From assembly GCA_020630675.1 (NCBI GenBank), contig JAHDIR010000025.1:1-39190 (forward strand): a stretch of 39,190 nucleotides of DNA. Reading direction: 5' to 3'. A program made the position numbers and the translations under genes. Under the pieces are notes generated by a model. The model was not told where the DNA came from. It worked only from the letters and a program-made list of their open reading frames with translations, and did not search any database. Positions 1,815 to 9,202 of the stretch are shown here, piece after piece; within the stretch, counting starts at the first letter, position 1, and every line of letters begins with the position of its first letter. This stretch comes from Bdellovibrionales bacterium. Its GTDB lineage: Bacteria > Bdellovibrionota > Bdellovibrionia > Bdellovibrionales > UBA1609.

Positions 1815-3506
1815 TTATTGATCCATTTGAGTGTTAGATAAAATTTCTTCAATAGAGGTCAGTCCACTTAAAATTTTACTGATTCCATGGTCTCGAAAGG
1901 GAATCATCCCTTCTTCCACCGCTAATTTTTTAATGGCGGCTCCATCTTTTCTTTGCATGATTAACGTTCTCATTGGCTCGGTCACCATAAGTAGCTCTTG
2001 AATAATAGTTCGTCCGGCGTATCCTTTTTGATTGCATTTGTCACAGCCCTTGGCGCGGTGAATATTTGTTTCCTTGATTTGCTCACGAGTCAGTTCAAGA
2101 CTAGACAACTCAACATCTGTGGGCTCATGAGGAACTTTGCAGTGTGGGCAGAGGAGTCTTATTAAACGCTGGGCAACAATTCCTAGTAAAGATGTGGCTA
2201 TTAAAAATGGCTCGCACCCCATATCAATTAACCTTGGAAAAACCCCTGCAGAATCATTGGTATGAATTGTGGATAAAACAAGGTGACCCGTAAGAGAAGC
2301 ATTAATAGCAATTTCCGCTGTTTCTAAATCACGAATCTCTCCTAGCATTATTACATTAGGATCTTGACGTAAAATGGCTTTAAGGCCTTTGGCGAAGGTT
2401 AGGCCAATCTTAGCATTGGCTTGTATTTGTCCAATGCCATGAATTCTTTGCTCGACGGGGTCTTCGACGGTGATAATATTTTTATCAATGGTGTTAATTT
2501 TTGCAATGGAAGAATAAAGAGTGGTCGACTTACCGCTACCTGTTGGCCCTGTGACTAAAAAGATACCGTAGGTCTTTGCTAAGATGTCATCAATCAAGGT
2601 CAGGCTTTGCTGGGAAAACCCCAGTTGGTTAAGGTCTAAAATAACATTGGACCTATCCTGCAAACGCATAACGATACGTTCTCCATGAGAGGTGGGGACG
2701 GTACTTAAACGAACATCAATATCTTTACCGGCTAGTTTAAGAGGGATACGTCCATCTTGCGGCAATCGTTTTTCAGCAATGTTAAGGTTGGCCATAACTT
2801 TAATTCTTGAGGTAATAGCATTTTGTAATTTTTTAGGCGGTTTAAAAACATCAAACAAAACACCATCTGTTCTAAAGCGCACGACCATATCTTTTTCGTA
2901 GGGTTCAATATGTATATCAGAGGCCTTTTCTTTGACAGCTCGAAATAAAAGGCGGTTCACCAGTTTAATCACAGGGGCGTCATCATCACCGGCCTCTAAA
3001 AGGTCAATCACTGGGTCATCTAAGTCAATGTCGTCATCTTCGATATCATCAAGGCCTTCTAAGGCGGCCGTACTTCTTTCATAAACCTTATTAATGGTTT
3101 CATGCATTCTTAGGCTGGTTGTGACTAAGCTTTTTATGGGTTTGCCAAACATCACTCGTAAATCATCTAAGGCTTTATGATTAAGGGGATTACTTGTTAA
3201 AACTAATAAGCAGTCTTTCTCTTCTTTATAAGGAAGCACTTCATGATTTTTAGAGTAGTTAATAGGAATATCTCTCACAAGATCAGCTAATATATCATTG
3301 GAAGGAATATCTTGAATAAACTCAACATTCATTAAGCCGCAGAGCTCTTTCAAAGCATCGTCAATAGAGCTAAAACTTTTTTCAAAAAGAATATCTTTGA
3401 AAAGAGTGCCTTTGCGGTTTTTAAGTTCAAGAATAGAGTGCAGTTGCTCTTTGTTGAGCTTCGTGCCCTTAACAATTAAGTTTTCAAATGAATTTTTAGA
3501 TGCCAT
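1815..3506 (-). CDS. gspE: Type II secretion assembly ATPase GspE
   Basis: This is the cytoplasmic hexameric ATPase that powers pseudopilus assembly. The 563-residue product has an N-terminal GspE/PilB domain, an acidic linker (about 151-165), and an ATPase core. The core has Walker A GPTGSGKST at 320-328, an Asp box near 347-353 and Walker B VIMLGEIRD at 385-393. The tetracysteine zinc motif is at Cys453, Cys456, Cys488 and Cys491, as in GspE. No alternative in-frame start fits, so translation begins at 3506. The surroundings are odd: a strong terminator-like hairpin ends about 22 bp upstream, no ribosome site lies at normal spacing, and TATAAT sits 2 bp before the ATG. gspE may therefore be expressed separately from gspCD or from a very short leader. 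Confidence 0.95.
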   Translation of the reverse strand: MASKNSFENLIVKGTKLNKEQLHSILELKNRKGTLFKDILFEKSFSSIDDALKELCGLMNVEFIQDIPSNDILADLVRDIPINYSKNHEVLPYKEEKDCLLVLTSNPLNHKALDDLRVMFGKPIKSLVTTSLRMHETINKVYERSTAALEGLDDIEDDDIDLDDPVIDLLEAGDDDAPVIKLVNRLLFRAVKEKASDIHIEPYEKDMVVRFRTDGVLFDVFKPPKKLQNAITSRIKVMANLNIAEKRLPQDGRIPLKLAGKDIDVRLSTVPTSHGERIVMRLQDRSNVILDLNQLGFSQQSLTLIDDILAKTYGIFLVTGPTGSGKSTTLYSSIAKINTIDKNIITVEDPVEQRIHGIGQIQANAKIGLTFAKGLKAILRQDPNVIMLGEIRDLETAEIAINASLTGHLVLSTIHTNDSAGVFPRLIDMGCEPFLIATSLLGIVAQRLIRLLCPHCKVPHEPTDVELSSLELTREQIKETNIHRAKGCDKCNQKGYAGRTIIQELLMVTEPMRTLIMQRKDGAAIKKLAVEEGMIPFRDHGISKILSGLTSIEEILSNTQMDQ

Positions 3507-3508
3507 GA

Positions 3509-3514
3509 ATTATA
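3509..3514 (-). promoter_or_regulatory. Possible -10 box (TATAAT) abutting the gspE start
   Basis: The minus strand reads TATAAT at 3514-3509, with the gspE ATG beginning at 3506. Seventeen bases upstream there is only a T-run as a possible -35. A transcript from this box would start at or just inside the start codon, giving an almost leaderless message. The hexamer is perfect, but AT-rich DNA gives such matches by chance. Confidence 0.3.
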
Positions 3515-3528
3515 TGTTAAGGGTTCCT

Positions 3529-3560
3529 AAAAAAAAAAGCCACTGATTTTAGTGGCTTTT
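3529..3560 (-). terminator. Strong intrinsic terminator between gspD and gspE
   Basis: On the minus strand a perfect 10-bp stem (arms 3551-3560 and 3535-3544, ending GTGGC in the 3' arm) with a 6-nt loop is followed by a run of ten T, part of it overlapping the stem. It lies about 75 bp past the gspD stop and 22 bp before the gspE start. It has full terminator architecture, yet sits in the middle of what should be one operon. It could set gspD above gspE levels by partial read-through. Confidence 0.8.
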
Positions 3561-3633
3561 GGTGAATTCTTGGTTGGCTAGAAGTTAATTTTTACCCTCG
3601 CCCAAGGTCGAGGGCAAGGGCGAAGGGTTGAAT

Positions 3634-5850
3634 CTAAAAAGACTCAATGGCTGGTTCTTCTTGGTCTGGCTCTAAGCTTTGATCTAAATCATCAAGGGGG
3701 TTAATGGTGCTGTTAGATGTTTTTCTTGGAAGGTTATCAATTTCATAACCATGAGGGTCACGACCATTCATAAAGCTTTGAATAAAATCAATTCTTTCAT
3801 TAATTTTTTGATTCACCACTTCGGCATTGTCGTCAGTATTTCGAATGATCTTTGGGGTAATAAACATCATCAAATTACGTTTGGTTTTTTCTGTTTCTTT
3901 GGCTTTAAATAACCAACCCACAATGGGTATGTCTCCAAGTATTGGAACTTTACTGACACTACTTGTTTCAGAGTCTTGCATTAAGCCACCAATTACGGCA
4001 GTGTCACCACTATCGACGGTTATGGCCGTAACCACATTACGGTTGTTGGTGACGACGGCCGCATTCTTCAGTTCAGAGGCTGCCACCTGTTCTGTTGTGG
4101 CTTGTTTTATTTTTTGGTCAATTTTTAACTGAACTTGGTCGGTGTCAGGGCTAATTCTTGGTGTGATCTTTAAGTTAATGGTGGCATCAACTCGTTCAAT
4201 CGAAGTTTGCGCTGCCCCCGCAGTTCCTACAGCTGTTGTTGTTTGTCCGACAGGAATAGTTTGTCCAACTTCAATATTGGCCTCTTCATTATCCATAATC
4301 ATAATTTGTGGACTAGAAAGAACATTTCCTCCGTTATTTGATTTAAGTAAATTCACAAGGCCTGTAATGGATTTAACTTCAATGGCGTTTTGCCCCGGAG
4401 GAGTAATAGACACGGTTTTACCAAGCCCAAATCCTAAGATGGCGCCGGCTCCACCCAATGGGTTGGTCACGCTGGCTAAAGATTCAGGGTTGCCAACAAA
4501 TCCAACTCGTCCCAGTCCTTGAGTGTCTTCTTTAAAGTTAAAGTAGTTGATGCCCCAGTTATGTTTTTTAGAGGCGTTCATTTCCATGATAATGGCTTTG
4601 ACAAAAACTTGATCTCTTTGAATATCAATTTTAGCTAAAAGGCCTTTCATGACGTCGTAGTCTTGGCGGCTGGCGGTAATAATTAAGCTGTTGGTGGTTT
4701 TATCAGCAGTCACCTTAACATCACCACCAAACAAAGCGTTGCCACCACCACTATTGGCCTGAGAAGAAGGGGTGGTTGTTCTTCTTGGGGTCACTCCGGA
4801 GCCACCGGTTTTAGCGTCATTCGCTTTTTTGGAATCAGTGGCCACGCCGTTTAATACGTTAGCAATTTCTTCGGCTTCACCATGACGAACATAGTAAACA
4901 TAAACTCCGCCACTGTCTTCAGGGTTAAGTGGAAAGTCTAACTTTTTGACAAGAGCTTTAATTCGTTTAATACCGGCCGTGTTTCCCATAACAACAATAG
5001 AGTTTATTCTTTCGTCGGCCACCACCAGGGAGTAACTTTCGGCTCCACTTGTTGTGGTTTTTTTAGCTTTTCTACGAAAACGAGGGACACTTTTTCCGCT
5101 ACTTTCTCCCTTGTTAATAATTTTGTCGATGAGGTCGCGAATTTCTTTGGCTTTGGCATTGTAAATACGAATCACAGCTAACTGCTCTTCAAAGCCAGGG
5201 ACATCAAGCTGTGCTAAAATTCTTGAAATTCTTTCGATGTTAGAGCCAAAGTCAGTAATAATTAAAGAGTTAGTGGCCCCATAAGCCTCAAGTATACCTT
5301 GTCTTGATTTTAGGTATTTAATTTTACTCGCAAGATCTTCAGCACTAATATATTTCAGCTTTACAATTCGCGTGATCACTTGGTCTGTGTTGGGAAAGTA
5401 ATCTGTGTAAGTTTCAATACTGTCATTTTGGGCCGTGGTGACTTGGCGAATTTTAAGAAAGTTACCGCTAGGAACAACAGTAAGATTATTAATAGCTAGG
5501 GCAGAGAGAAAGGCGCGGTAAGCTTCTGCGACGGTAATTTGCGAGGGTGCTAATATTGTGATTTTGCCTCGGCTGGCCGCGGGATCAATAATGAAGTTTT
5601 TTCCGGTTAACTTACTAATGGCTTTAACCACTTGTTCGATTTCTGCATTCGGGTAGTCAAAACTGTCGATAAGCTCCGGAAAGTTGTCATTATTAATATC
5701 TTCTGGTTGAGCTTTGGCAAACCTTTTTTTAGTTTCTTCTGTGATGGGGCTAGAGTTTTTTTCGTTTTTGCTGTCTTGAGCTTTAGCCGTCCCACAGCAC
5801 AATAAAATAGCGAAGGCCCATCCGAAAACGGTTTTCCTTTTAATAGACAT
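3634..5850 (-). CDS. gspD: Type II secretion outer-membrane secretin GspD
   Basis: GspD forms the large gated ring in the outer membrane through which folded proteins leave the periplasm. I chose the ATG at 5850 (738 residues), because AAGGAG lies just upstream and the product then begins with a clean signal peptide (MSIKRK, a hydrophobic stretch, then AKA and QDS). The N0 domain starts near residue 60, followed by the N1-N3 repeats. Two low-complexity insertions are visible: a basic RFRRKAKK segment around residue 260, and a Gly/Ser/Thr-rich linker around 345-385 inside the N3 region, where many GspDs carry one. The secretin core ends with VPILGDIPIVGWLF and MMFITPKII, both family signatures. 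A further in-frame upstream ATG exists at 5880 but lacks a ribosome site. Confidence 0.94.
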   Translation of the reverse strand: MSIKRKTVFGWAFAILLCCGTAKAQDSKNEKNSSPITEETKKRFAKAQPEDINNDNFPELIDSFDYPNAEIEQVVKAISKLTGKNFIIDPAASRGKITILAPSQITVAEAYRAFLSALAINNLTVVPSGNFLKIRQVTTAQNDSIETYTDYFPNTDQVITRIVKLKYISAEDLASKIKYLKSRQGILEAYGATNSLIITDFGSNIERISRILAQLDVPGFEEQLAVIRIYNAKAKEIRDLIDKIINKGESSGKSVPRFRRKAKKTTTSGAESYSLVVADERINSIVVMGNTAGIKRIKALVKKLDFPLNPEDSGGVYVYYVRHGEAEEIANVLNGVATDSKKANDAKTGGSGVTPRRTTTPSSQANSGGGNALFGGDVKVTADKTTNSLIITASRQDYDVMKGLLAKIDIQRDQVFVKAIIMEMNASKKHNWGINYFNFKEDTQGLGRVGFVGNPESLASVTNPLGGAGAILGFGLGKTVSITPPGQNAIEVKSITGLVNLLKSNNGGNVLSSPQIMIMDNEEANIEVGQTIPVGQTTTAVGTAGAAQTSIERVDATINLKITPRISPDTDQVQLKIDQKIKQATTEQVAASELKNAAVVTNNRNVVTAITVDSGDTAVIGGLMQDSETSSVSKVPILGDIPIVGWLFKAKETEKTKRNLMMFITPKIIRNTDDNAEVVNQKINERIDFIQSFMNGRDPHGYEIDNLPRKTSNSTINPLDDLDQSLEPDQEEPAIESF

Positions 5851-5924: not shown

Positions 5925-6893
5925 TTACTCAATGACATAATTAAACTTGTCATCTTTTCCATTTCTTTGAATGTCGATATCCACTGAACTTGCATCTGAT
6001 TTTAAAATATTAAATAGCTCCATGGCTTTGGCAGGGCTATTTACGGGCTCACCATTGACGCCTTTGATGACATCTCCGGCCTTAAAACCAAGCTTTTCAA
6101 AAATACTGCCCGGTTTTATATTAGAAAATTTATAACCTTGTAGGCTGCCATCTGGACCAATATTTTTGTCCATTCTAGCTTGTGTGAGAAGGGTTCCTAG
6201 GCGTTGTGTTTGGGCTAAAAAGTCCGAGCGTTTAATGACACGGCTTTTTCCTCTAACTTCTACCACATCATTGGACTCAGATTTAGGTGTGCTTTTTTTG
6301 GCTTTAGAACCAAATGAAACTTTAAGATCTTCAGGTATTTCAATAAATTCCTTTTTGTTGGTATTGAGGTTTCTAATGATCACTTTTTTTCGCTCGACAT
6401 TTAAAATTTTGGCGATACCGTCGACCTCTTCGTCCTTTTTCCACGAGCCATTTTTATTTTGACTGGTTAATGAGATGGTCGCAATTGATTTAGCAGGGTT
6501 TCTGTGAACAATTGTTCCTAGAAGCTTTAAAGGCAATCTTGAAAGGGTTGGTGGGCCATCGTCAGAATTTTTCTGTTCTTTGCCACTTTTTTCAGTGGCC
6601 AGGGCAGTGGGGATTTTTCCTTTGGAATTAAAAATATTTCTTTTGGCAATCGCAGAGTAAGCGCCTTTGAACTGAGGTTTTATAAACTTTTTCTTTTTTG
6701 GTTTTTTGGGGGGAGCTTCTTTGGGAAGCATGACCGGGCGAACATATAAAGTGCCAAGGTCTGCCAAAATAAAACCAAGAAGTAAGACCAAAATATAGGG
6801 AAGAGCAAACTCAAAAACAGGCTTTGAGTTGGAATTTGATTTTTGCTTATTTAATATTTTGTCTAAAAAACTCATTAAAGATAATTTTAGCAA
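5925..6893 (-). CDS. gspC: Type II secretion protein GspC with C-terminal PDZ domain
   Basis: GspC is the inner-membrane clamp connecting the platform (GspL/M) to the secretin N0 domain. The product has a short cytoplasmic N-terminus, one membrane helix (about residues 30-50) and a Pro/Lys-rich periplasmic linker. A homology region follows (AIAKRNIFNS to about 190), then a PDZ domain (about 240-322) with the PGSIFEKLGFKAGDVI motif. It is the first gene of the operon, 74 bp before gspD. The start is uncertain. TTG at 6893 has AGGG at a reasonable distance; the in-frame ATG at 6875 has no ribosome site but is a better codon. Either gives a complete GspC. Confidence 0.88.
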   Translation of the reverse strand: MLKLSLMSFLDKILNKQKSNSNSKPVFEFALPYILVLLLGFILADLGTLYVRPVMLPKEAPPKKPKKKKFIKPQFKGAYSAIAKRNIFNSKGKIPTALATEKSGKEQKNSDDGPPTLSRLPLKLLGTIVHRNPAKSIATISLTSQNKNGSWKKDEEVDGIAKILNVERKKVIIRNLNTNKKEFIEIPEDLKVSFGSKAKKSTPKSESNDVVEVRGKSRVIKRSDFLAQTQRLGTLLTQARMDKNIGPDGSLQGYKFSNIKPGSIFEKLGFKAGDVIKGVNGEPVNSPAKAMELFNILKSDASSVDIDIQRNGKDDKFNYVIE

Positions 6894-7030
6894 AAACTAC
6901 CCTGTAATCACTTGAATTCACTATTAAATTAGAAAGCTGGACTAAGGGGGTGCTGGCCATTGAAAAAAAAGTGCAGCCTTGACGTAAATCGAACAATTTT
7001 TTGATAAAAAGAGTTTTTGGAAGATGGGTG

Positions 7031-7075
7031 TCTAGACCAAGGTATTGCTTTTTTAAAGGGAGCTAAACTTTGTTT
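7031..7075 (+). repeat. Imperfect direct repeat, copy 1 (degenerate promoter-like copy)
   Basis: This copy aligns with 7279-7322 over about 45 bp with single-base gaps. Both share TCTAG, then TATTGCTTTT, TAAA, GGG, a TAA and CTT, and GTTT. Its -12-type GC (7047-7048) is kept, but the -24-type element reads GA (7035-7036) instead of GG. It may be a decayed or weaker promoter copy. Confidence 0.6.
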
Positions 7076-7278
7076 TTCTTTTAGCTGTTATTAATTATTT
7101 TTATAGAGGTTGCAGGTGTGTATTCGGTAATTTTGGTTTCGTGTGAAACAAGATTGTTGTGAATAATTTTTTATAAAATTGAATCAATAAAAAAACTACC
7201 GCATGGTTTTGTAAAAACGACAAAGCCTTGTGTTTTTTTAAAATCATTTAAAGTTTATTTGTAACTGAGATCATTTTT

Positions 7279-7322
7279 TCTAGGCACAGATATTGCTTTT
7301 ATAAATGGGGTAAGCTTGTTTC
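7279..7322 (+). repeat. Imperfect direct repeat, copy 2 (contains the intact sigma-54-like site)
   Basis: This is the second copy of the repeat described at 7031-7075, about 248 bp downstream and 45 bp before the FabD-like start codon. It retains GGCAC and TTGCT at the spacing expected of a sigma-54 promoter, unlike copy 1. Confidence 0.6.
7283..7297 (+). promoter_or_regulatory. Sigma-54 (RpoN)-type -24/-12 promoter
   Basis: GGCAC and TTGCT are arranged with exactly 10 nt between GG (7283-7284) and GC (7295-7296). This is the invariant geometry of RpoN promoters (consensus TGGCAC-N5-TTGCW). The base before GG is A instead of T. Transcription would start near 7307, giving a leader of about 60 nt with an AAGGGGGAAG ribosome site before the ATG at 7368. 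Sigma-54 dependence would require an enhancer-binding ATPase acting from upstream. Confidence 0.6.
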
Positions 7323-7367
7323 ATGTGAGACAGTTTGCAGGGGAAAAATTAACAAGGGGGAAGCGTC

Positions 7368-8090
7368 ATGCTTAAGGCAGTAATATTTTCGGATTTACAT
7401 TCATTAGACTTTTCGGACATAAGACATAATGTCATTCGAATTCCAGAAGTCTTAAATAAAGTTAAAGAGGCTCAAGAGATATCAGATAAGCTTGGGGAAG
7501 ACTCAGGTTTTCATGAAGATTTTTATTCAGTTCTAGCTTCGGATAACACTATATATAACAAAAATATTAAATTAAAGTCTGTTTTGTCGACGATTATTCA
7601 ATTAGGTCTTTATGAAAGGTATGTAAACAAAAATGGTCAGCCTGATTTTTTGATGGGTGATATCAATGGGGTTTCTCCGTTGGCTATTTGTAGCGGTGAC
7701 TCTGACTTAGAGTCTTTATTGGCAAAAGATACCTGTGAAAATGTTGTTGGTGTTTTAAGCCTTGTTGGTGATGCCATGAATGAACAGCCTTTGTTATCGG
7801 GCGTGACTATGTCGATGCATCATTCTTTTAAAAAATCTGAAGATGAAGGTTATGAAAAAATAGGTGATCCGGCCAAAGACATGGGTATTTTAATTCAAGA
7901 GCTTATAGAAGGGCAGGGTGTGAAACAGTTGATTGATGTGGGGCCAGGAAGTAGTTGGTTGAGTTCTGGAGATTTTGATCACTCTATGTATGACATTCAA
8001 GTTTTAGAGTCGATTAATATGGACCCTATGTTGAGTTGGTTTTGGCCCTATGTGCGCAATCAAAACCAATCGTTAGATTTAGCAAATTAA
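7368..8090 (+). CDS. FabD/acyltransferase-like protein lacking the catalytic serine
   Basis: The 240-residue product shows a faint acyl-carrier-protein malonyltransferase pattern. KAVIFSDLHS occupies the place of the first beta strand and GQGSQ motif. LGLYERYVNKNGQPDFLMGDINGV (81-102) fits the helix and nucleophile elbow, and LIDVGPGSSW (188-197) resembles the conserved VEVGPG segment. At the elbow, the expected GHSLGE reads GDINGV (97-102), so Ser99 is Ile and the His is Asp; the GQGSQ oxyanion loop is also absent. A normal transferase reaction therefore looks impossible. A scaffold, carrier-protein-binding or regulatory role is speculation. No signal peptide or membrane helix is seen. The gene stands alone behind a sigma-54-like promoter and overlaps the convergent GNAT-like gene by 4 bp. 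The homology is a by-eye call. Confidence 0.5.
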   Translation: MLKAVIFSDLHSLDFSDIRHNVIRIPEVLNKVKEAQEISDKLGEDSGFHEDFYSVLASDNTIYNKNIKLKSVLSTIIQLGLYERYVNKNGQPDFLMGDINGVSPLAICSGDSDLESLLAKDTCENVVGVLSLVGDAMNEQPLLSGVTMSMHHSFKKSEDEGYEKIGDPAKDMGILIQELIEGQGVKQLIDVGPGSSWLSSGDFDHSMYDIQVLESINMDPMLSWFWPYVRNQNQSLDLAN

Positions 8091-9202
8091 AAAAGAAAAG
8101 GGGCCTCAAAATCAGGGGGGTCCTTGTAGGGTGATGGTTTCAAAAAACCAGGCACTGGTTCGTCTGGAGACAACAGGCAATATAAACCAAACTTTGCTTT
8201 TGAGTGTATAAAACCCTTAGGTGGAAGTGAGGGGAGGTGGCCTTTGAAGTGAGGGTACACCAAGATATCTCTTTTAAAGGAACTGTCATAGCAGTGCCTT
8301 AAGAGGCTATAAAAAATGTCAGGGTTATCAGCAAAAAAATGAGTCATAAAGTTCAAAGGTAAAGTTTGACCTACATTAGGAAGAGGGCGAGTCATTCCAA
8401 TCCAGGACAAAAACTTTAAAGACTGTTTTGCCGACATGGCAAGGGCGTTATTATAGCTTTTAATTTTTATCTCTAAAGCTGGATTCACCCATGGCGCTAC
8501 ACAACCCACGATTTGTTTTTTGTGATCAAGGGCTATGACAAAGTCTTGAAGATTAAAGTAAGGAAGAGCCTCTATGTCGCGAAGTATATCTTCTTTGGAA
8601 TCTATAAAGCGTATGGGTTTGTTAATTTTTTGAATGTGCATATATTCAAGAAGCTTATCTTTGTCCTCATACTCGGCTGTGCGAAAGGTCACTCCCGGTA
8701 ATTTTTCATCAGAGAACGGCAATAGGCCATGAATAGAAATTAATTTAAATTTGCGATACAAAAAATACCTGGGCAAGGGGCGGTTCTTTTTACGAGGGCG
8801 TATAAAGGCATTATAGGCTTGTGTTTGTTTATTGGAAACAACGGTAAATATATAGGTGCAATTGTGTTTCTTTTTTTCTTCTTCAAGGGCGGGAAGAAAA
8901 TGTTTAGACCAACTAATTATGGCCGCTCTATTTTTAGAAACCCTTAAGTCTGTTGCAAAGCCAATGACTTGTTTTTTTCCTTGTAGCCAAGCGTCTCTGA
9001 AAAGGAGGGTTGCCATTCCTTGGATTTGCTCTTCTTTGTCGATTAAAAGATAAGTGGTGTGTTGGTCGCTTTGAATTTTATAGTGTTGAAAAAAAATATT
9101 TTTTCTAACGAGCTCAAGTTCCGTTTGCGCGGCATAGCTATATTGTTTGTAAAAATCTATGAGGGCCTTGTTGTGCTCATCCGTGGCTTTGACCAGTTTC
9201 AT
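8087..9202 (-). CDS. GNAT-like (possibly tandem) acyltransferase-family protein
   Basis: This is a soluble 371-residue protein. The N-terminal half (about 1-155) reads like a GNAT fold: MKLVKATDEHNKALIDFY at the start, a strand with IDKEEQIQGMATLLF (about 54-68), then GFATDLRVSKNRAA near the acetyl-CoA-binding position. The C-terminal half (about 170-365) begins again with VTFRTAEYEDKDKLLEYM and contains FVIALDHKKQIVGCVAPW, which suggests a second, degenerate GNAT-like unit. I cannot name a substrate. The start codon overlaps the stop of the adenosyltransferase gene by 4 bp (ATGA), so the two are probably co-transcribed. The 3' end overlaps the convergent FabD-like gene, with no terminator visible between them. 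The GNAT assignment is moderate; the two-domain idea is inference. Confidence 0.6.
   Translation of the reverse strand: MKLVKATDEHNKALIDFYKQYSYAAQTELELVRKNIFFQHYKIQSDQHTTYLLIDKEEQIQGMATLLFRDAWLQGKKQVIGFATDLRVSKNRAAIISWSKHFLPALEEEKKKHNCTYIFTVVSNKQTQAYNAFIRPRKKNRPLPRYFLYRKFKLISIHGLLPFSDEKLPGVTFRTAEYEDKDKLLEYMHIQKINKPIRFIDSKEDILRDIEALPYFNLQDFVIALDHKKQIVGCVAPWVNPALEIKIKSYNNALAMSAKQSLKFLSWIGMTRPLPNVGQTLPLNFMTHFFADNPDIFYSLLRHCYDSSFKRDILVYPHFKGHLPSLPPKGFIHSKAKFGLYCLLSPDEPVPGFLKPSPYKDPPDFEAPFLF

Follow-up and report, generated by a model that had tools for sequence, protein, structure and literature searches.

Does the short motif preceding a solitary gene in the genome of a Bdellovibrionales bacterium act as a sigma-54 (RpoN) promoter, and which kind of protein would be produced under its control? 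The question arises from a stretch of 39,190 nucleotides (assembly GCA_020630675.1, contig JAHDIR010000025.1), hereafter the window, in which an earlier note recognized a sigma-54-type promoter upstream of a lone, catalytically impaired FabD-like gene, here called X. Sigma-54 promoters follow the consensus TGGCACR-N4-TTGCW, and the GG-N10-GC geometry with GGCAC and TTGCT that had been pointed out is borne out by the sequence: GGCACAGATATTGCT spans 7283-7297, at 70 nt 5' of the ATG at 7368, the start codon which opens the 240-aa ORF of X, and the box is oriented toward X. The gene is indeed a lone one, a single-gene unit divergent from gspC and convergent with the next ORF. No papers on gene X were found in the literature searched. 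The features of the locus are collected in Table 1.

Table 1. Coordinates of the features discussed, in positions of the window
Feature	Position	Strand	Remarks
gspC	5925-6893	-	Divergent neighbour of X; first listed type II secretion gene here
Palindrome copy CTMGACYWWRGTCKAG	7032-7047	.	Order-wide, in the interval separating gspC from X; more probably a gspC element
Inverted repeat GGTTTTGTAAAAACGACAAAGCC	7205-7227	+	Includes TGTAAAAA, identical in the three sequences of the genus; weak candidate for an activator site
Sigma-54-type promoter box AGGCACAGATATTGCT	7282-7297	+	-24 AGGCAC, -12 TTGCT; GG 7283-7284, GC 7295-7296; kept in 38/48 loci
Predicted transcription start	7307-7309	+	About 12 nt past GC, as placed from general sigma-54 geometry
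G-rich leader	7307-7367	+	G-tracts 7307-7310, 7340-7343 and 7356-7360 (the last at the ribosome-binding site)
X, predicted FabD/acyltransferase-fold protein, 240 aa	7368-8090	+	No conserved catalytic serine; Ile99 in the window

Within the window alone, the box is not statistically special and constitutes weak evidence. Allowing up to 3 mismatches, TGGCACNNNNNTTGCW yields 155 matches as compared to a shuffle mean of 169, and GGCAYNNNNNTTGCW with at most 1 mismatch yields 8 matches versus 9.2 in shuffled sequences, the site at 7283-7297 being the sole exact one. That shuffled sequences match such a relaxed pattern at least as often leaves room for the reading that the box arose by chance and that X is driven by a sigma-70 or a FliA promoter, and one sigma-70-like site (9/12) does occur on the plus strand at 7217-7244. 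However, sigma-70-like sites are at shuffle level (5 found, 4.3 expected), no FliA-type site with 3 mismatches or fewer occurs in 6236-7386, GGCAYNNNNNTTGCT gives 34 matches genome-wide versus a single one for the reversed pattern, and the box is kept in 38 of 48 loci versus 0-2 in controls. The chance-match reading of the box was rejected on the grounds of this conservation across relatives, and an origin of the X transcript at a sigma-70 or FliA promoter is considered highly improbable. Among the 34 own-genome boxes, 30 were examined, of which 18 occur outside long ORFs and 12 inside one. Ten products encoded downstream of such boxes were scanned; four matched no family and six matched known ones, namely an SLT transglycosylase, a subtilase, PLD, TPR, a flagellar rod/hook protein and FtsK. 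The segment 7279-7308 is also 80% identical to 7031-7060, a copy overlapping a different, palindromic motif; it was rejected as a second promoter because GG is replaced there by GA.

The conservation was established on 75 family loci (30 + 45), reduced to 49 by the removal of 26 duplicates, and to 48 non-redundant Bdellovibrionales loci by dropping L093 (96% identical to L091), which is still counted within the 49 used for the strict pattern and for the residue counts. One locus without any family ORF (L125) enters no count, and neither does the second, tandem ORF of L106. Homologs of X occur in 36 of the 47 genomes of its own family, and among the 46 named loci retrieved with the family profile 45 bear Bdellovibrionales-type names, the remaining one being titled only "bacterium"; the wider figure of 111/140 genomes with family matches includes FabD-like paralogs and does not serve here as a tally of X. 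The strict pattern GGYAY-N5-TTGC is found within 350 nt upstream of X in 30/49 loci, as opposed to 0/49 on the reverse strand, 0/49 on either strand of the initial 350 nt of coding sequence, and a mean of 0.19 with a maximum of 2 in 200 shuffles. When sites are weighted and a score of 15 or more is required, the box is recovered within 350 nt upstream in 38/48 loci (24/30 in the own family and 14/18 outside); the three strand/CDS controls reach 1, 2 and 0 of 48, and 60 shuffles a mean of 0.7 with a maximum of 3. The site logo is biased because only loci scoring at least 15 were used, a bias from which the strict-pattern counts are free. Depending on the locus, the distance from GC to the start codon ranges from 34 to 272 nt in the 38 loci with a box. 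The neighbouring genes of the same loci possess a box in only 3/113 cases, distributed as 1/25 for gspC and 2/15 for the GNAT-like gene, with 0/7 for gspD, 0/10 for gspE, 0/24 for Cob, 0/21 for FGase and 0/11 for ResB.

At closer range, one locus of the same genus (L080) shows X in the reverse orientation, still flanked by gspC and the GNAT-like gene, and the box has moved along with it. The earlier note regarded a loss of the GG/GC pair in close relatives retaining the gene as evidence to the contrary; both same-genus genomes in which X is detectable, among three, keep the box, and X was not found in the third, which is 64% complete. A three-way alignment within the genus shows AGGCAC and TTGCT to be identical, together with one other block, TGTAAAAA, located about 65 nt upstream. 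The box is missing (score below 15) in 10/48 loci, six of them from the own family, and from all nine loci of family f3, which possess a short ortholog of X (scores 7-12). The own-family (f1) genomes without a box do carry rpoN. Sigma-54 control is not essential to X everywhere, because these 10/48 loci and 9/9 f3 loci do without the box; judged from such conservation, RpoN control of X would be the prevailing state rather than a universal one.

At sigma-54 promoters, RpoN polymerase remains in a closed complex and depends for its opening on ATP hydrolysis by an enhancer-binding protein bound upstream. The 3.1-Mb host genome contains one intact rpoN ORF of 486 codons with the RpoN box ARRTVAKYR, and 18 matches to PF00158, 12 of which are strong and 10 of these 12 contain the G[AS]FTGA motif. 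Within the family, rpoN occurs in 41/47 genomes. None of three rpoN domain models matched in G022, G027 and G038, which nevertheless harbour box loci (L017, L118 and L097, respectively), and G026 (box locus L087) possesses an rpoN fragment only. The completeness of the three rpoN-less drafts amounts to 96%, 94% and 78%, respectively, and the missing rpoN in all four genomes is likely to result from draft gaps (60-410 contigs, 78-96% complete). Taken together, the order-wide conservation of the box and the presence of rpoN and enhancer-binding proteins in the genome uphold the sigma-54 assignment, and the segment at 7282-7297, considered alone, is very probably a genuine promoter of this type. 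Since RpoN polymerase waits for an ATP-hydrolysing activator, by analogy with known sigma-54 biology X is probably produced only in response to a specific signal, which might correspond to a dedicated condition or life-cycle stage as the earlier note suggested.

The site from which such an activator would act has been sought upstream of the box, and no secure activator site emerged for X from the inverted repeat, the palindrome and the GAC-N4-GTC motif that were weighed. The inverted repeat at 7205-7227 could equally be a hairpin or a chance occurrence. The palindrome CTMGACYWWRGTCKAG is a pronounced motif, with a log-likelihood of 134 versus 46 for shuffled sequences (54 upstream regions). 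Its position was measurable in 53/61 sequences, seven others lacking a gspC match and one having gspC and X in the same orientation, in a set that contains near-duplicates such as L103/L172 and L091/L171. Forty sequences scored at least 12, and in 26 of these 40 the palindrome is located 28-105 nt from the gspC N-terminus; its distance to gspC is less scattered (sd 73) than its distance to X (sd 207). Genome counts are 8 versus 3 for the control in the host genome and 8 versus 16 in G065. Being nearer to gspC and also present where X has no box, this order-wide palindrome was not adopted as the activator site of X. It resembles an operator of type II secretion genes. As to the bare GAC-N4-GTC motif, it occurs in 13/38 loci versus a shuffle mean of 1.1, and yet in 5/38 of the CDS starts as well.

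The leader located between the predicted transcription start and X exhibits a peculiar composition. In the last 20 nt before X, a run of at least 5 G occurs in 25/48 loci and one of at least 4 G in 40/48, the latter being present in 34/38 loci with a box and in 6/10 without. A run of at least 5 G precedes the start of neighbouring genes in 2/113 cases, X alone among the 32 ORF starts of the window has a run of 5 G, and among 20 own-genome ORFs downstream of boxes such a run is restricted to X and to an ORF at L045. The latter ORF (691-1464), located downstream of a sigma-54 box, shows a signal-peptide-like start and belongs to no Pfam family. The poly-G ribosome-binding site and the G-tract leader of X were unexpected, and are kept in most relatives (L080-L124). 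At least two G4 runs occur in 30/38 X leaders, as compared to a shuffle mean of 4.7 and a maximum of 11, and among the G-runs outside the ribosome site 8/76 occupy the loop of a hairpin (p ≤ 0.01), versus about 0.8 expected. Both enrichments, together with the occurrence of csrA in 42/47 family genomes including the host genome, would suit the idea that, in addition to the control by RpoN, translation of X is governed by a CsrA-type RNA-binding protein recognizing GGGGA sites both at and upstream of the ribosome-binding site. CsrA, however, recognizes GGA rather than runs of four or more G, most G-runs have no hairpin, and the G-run may be just a strong Shine-Dalgarno sequence. Such a second layer of control appears unlikely, and a CsrA link to the X leader is a guess. 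In the window, GGGG at 7340-7343 forms no hairpin (p = 1.0), and the segment 6850-7450 has no Rfam match at E ≤ 1. A GGGG hairpin was rejected as an order-wide RNA element, being enriched in a subset only, absent from the window and devoid of an Rfam match.

The protein encoded by X (P0001) has no Pfam or NCBIfam match, and no Pfam family is reached at E ≤ 1. Its AlphaFold model, built with 30 homologs, shows a mean pLDDT of 85.8. Foldseek searches with this model gave no match at E ≤ 0.001; their top rows consist of malonyl transacylases and AT domains, with a probability of up to 1.00, and VIA gave Z values of 11-13 over 174-209 residues among the matches listed (50 rows). Sequence profiles against the PDB found nothing significant, with an unrelated chain at E 0.2 and human FAS at E 0.33; in the latter match, GxxNGD of X aligns under GHSLGE of human FAS. 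The link with FabD comes from FabD-like paralogs of 304-320 aa, of which 2/3 pass the PF00698 cut-off and 3/3 possess both Ser97 and His201: hhalign aligns X to these paralogs with an E value of 3.6e-28, in the N-terminal half only. As judged from these profiles X descends from FabD, and the predicted model points to an acyltransferase fold. One canonical PF00698 gene occurs elsewhere in the genome (contig C50). In locus L106, a second family member of 303 aa (2746-3654, = L165), without a Pfam acyltransferase match, is located directly downstream of X.

The active site has fared differently from the rest of the protein. Five residues are invariant in 49 X homologs (R24, P26, R84, D219 and L222), and the RIPEV and DPxLxWFW motifs are nearly invariant. 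The nucleophile column of the same homologs contains S in 15, I in 11, V in 7, T in 5, A in 4 and other residues in the rest. The short X located beside gspC in family f3 (L156, L157, L159, L161, L162, L163, L167, L168 and L175) comprises only 158-189 aa, and the nucleophile elbow segment is absent in 9/9 of these loci. It might be argued that X is still an acyltransferase or a hydrolase with an altered active site, taking into account its acyltransferase fold (Foldseek, VIA) and the serine found in 15/49 homologs, often within GNSNGDS. Against this, X of the window has Ile99 and most homologs have I, V, T, A or other residues instead of serine, the segment is missing from all nine positional orthologs of f3, and no conserved His column occurs in the X homolog alignment A1, whereas Ser97 and His201 are shared by all three FabD-like paralogs. 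An enzymatic X is thus distinctly unlikely, even if some members could still be enzymes because serine is kept in 15/49. With serine in only 15/49 homologs and short orthologs devoid of the segment, a non-catalytic role is the most likely one for X, in keeping with the impaired FabD-like product that had been proposed.

The genes gspC, gspD and gspE occupy the minus strand, and X sits between these and a convergent ORF whose family is uncertain. The latter, a minus-strand ORF at 8087-9202, shares four bases with the end of X and displays weak sub-cut-off Pfam matches (TssC, GNAT); it is syntenic in 18/46 sequences. A gspC-like ORF in the flanks of 39/46 sequences, and gspC beside X in 9/9 f3 loci, could suggest a part for X in type II secretion. 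Synteny extends to other neighbours, however (Cob in 27, FGase in 23, the GNAT-like gene in 18 and ResB in 16 of 46, with incomplete flanks), so that the adjacency may be simple synteny, and gspC itself rarely shares the box (1/25 loci). With the whole neighbourhood being syntenic, a role of X in type II secretion is unproven and rather doubtful.

The preferred reading combines both results: 7282-7297 is probably a genuine sigma-54 promoter transcribing X (7368-8090), and X a non-catalytic protein. RpoN polymerase would sit at 7282-7297 in a closed complex, which an enhancer-binding protein bound upstream would open on a signal by hydrolysing ATP. A leader of about 60 nt would be transcribed, and X translated from the poly-G site. 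X would keep the FabD-like core, with RIPEV and DPxLxWFW, as a binding scaffold from which acyl transfer has presumably been lost, and would most likely act as a regulator or adaptor by binding acyl carrier protein, acyl-CoA or some other protein partner. One may speculate further, at long odds, that X represents a new FabD-derived class of non-catalytic signalling proteins of Bdellovibrionales, gated in transcription by RpoN with its activator and in translation by the poly-G leader, which reads the acyl-ACP/acyl-CoA state and controls the adjacent type II secretion or a predatory-phase switch. Retained by most of the order, a promoter preceding a gene whose product has lost the conserved active-site serine offers a clean, testable entry to the RpoN regulon. 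In addition, the FabD-like series, from 304-320 aa (Ser and His) through about 240 aa (no conserved Ser) to 158-189 aa (no segment), illustrates how a housekeeping enzyme can be stripped down and yet retained, presumably for a new job.

With respect to known systems, the FliA-controlled attack-phase regulon of Bdellovibrio bacteriovorus (PMC3627812) provides a case, in a related predator, of surface and secreted proteins placed under an alternative sigma factor; no match to its consensus TTAAG-N16-CCGATA with 3 mismatches or fewer occurs upstream of X, and the material available from that study names no RpoN targets. An RpoN-like gene, bd0843, exists in B. bacteriovorus, and the parts of the literature searched (including PMC3464611, PMC11209729, PMC3162934 and PMC3627812) turned up no RpoN target in this species. 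Compared to sigma-54 promoters in general, the box of the window likewise possesses GG-N10-GC, GGCAC and TTGCT in a genome with rpoN and enhancer-binding proteins, but differs by an A instead of a T before GG and by a target gene without a known role. Finally, X differs from FabD, the malonyl-CoA:ACP transacylase (Pfam PF00698, Acyl_transf_1) of about 310 aa, by its length of 240 aa, its lack of a Pfam match and the non-conservation of the nucleophile serine and apparently of the catalytic histidine, whereas it appears to share with FabD the core fold and, via the FabD-like paralogs, a homologous N-terminal half.
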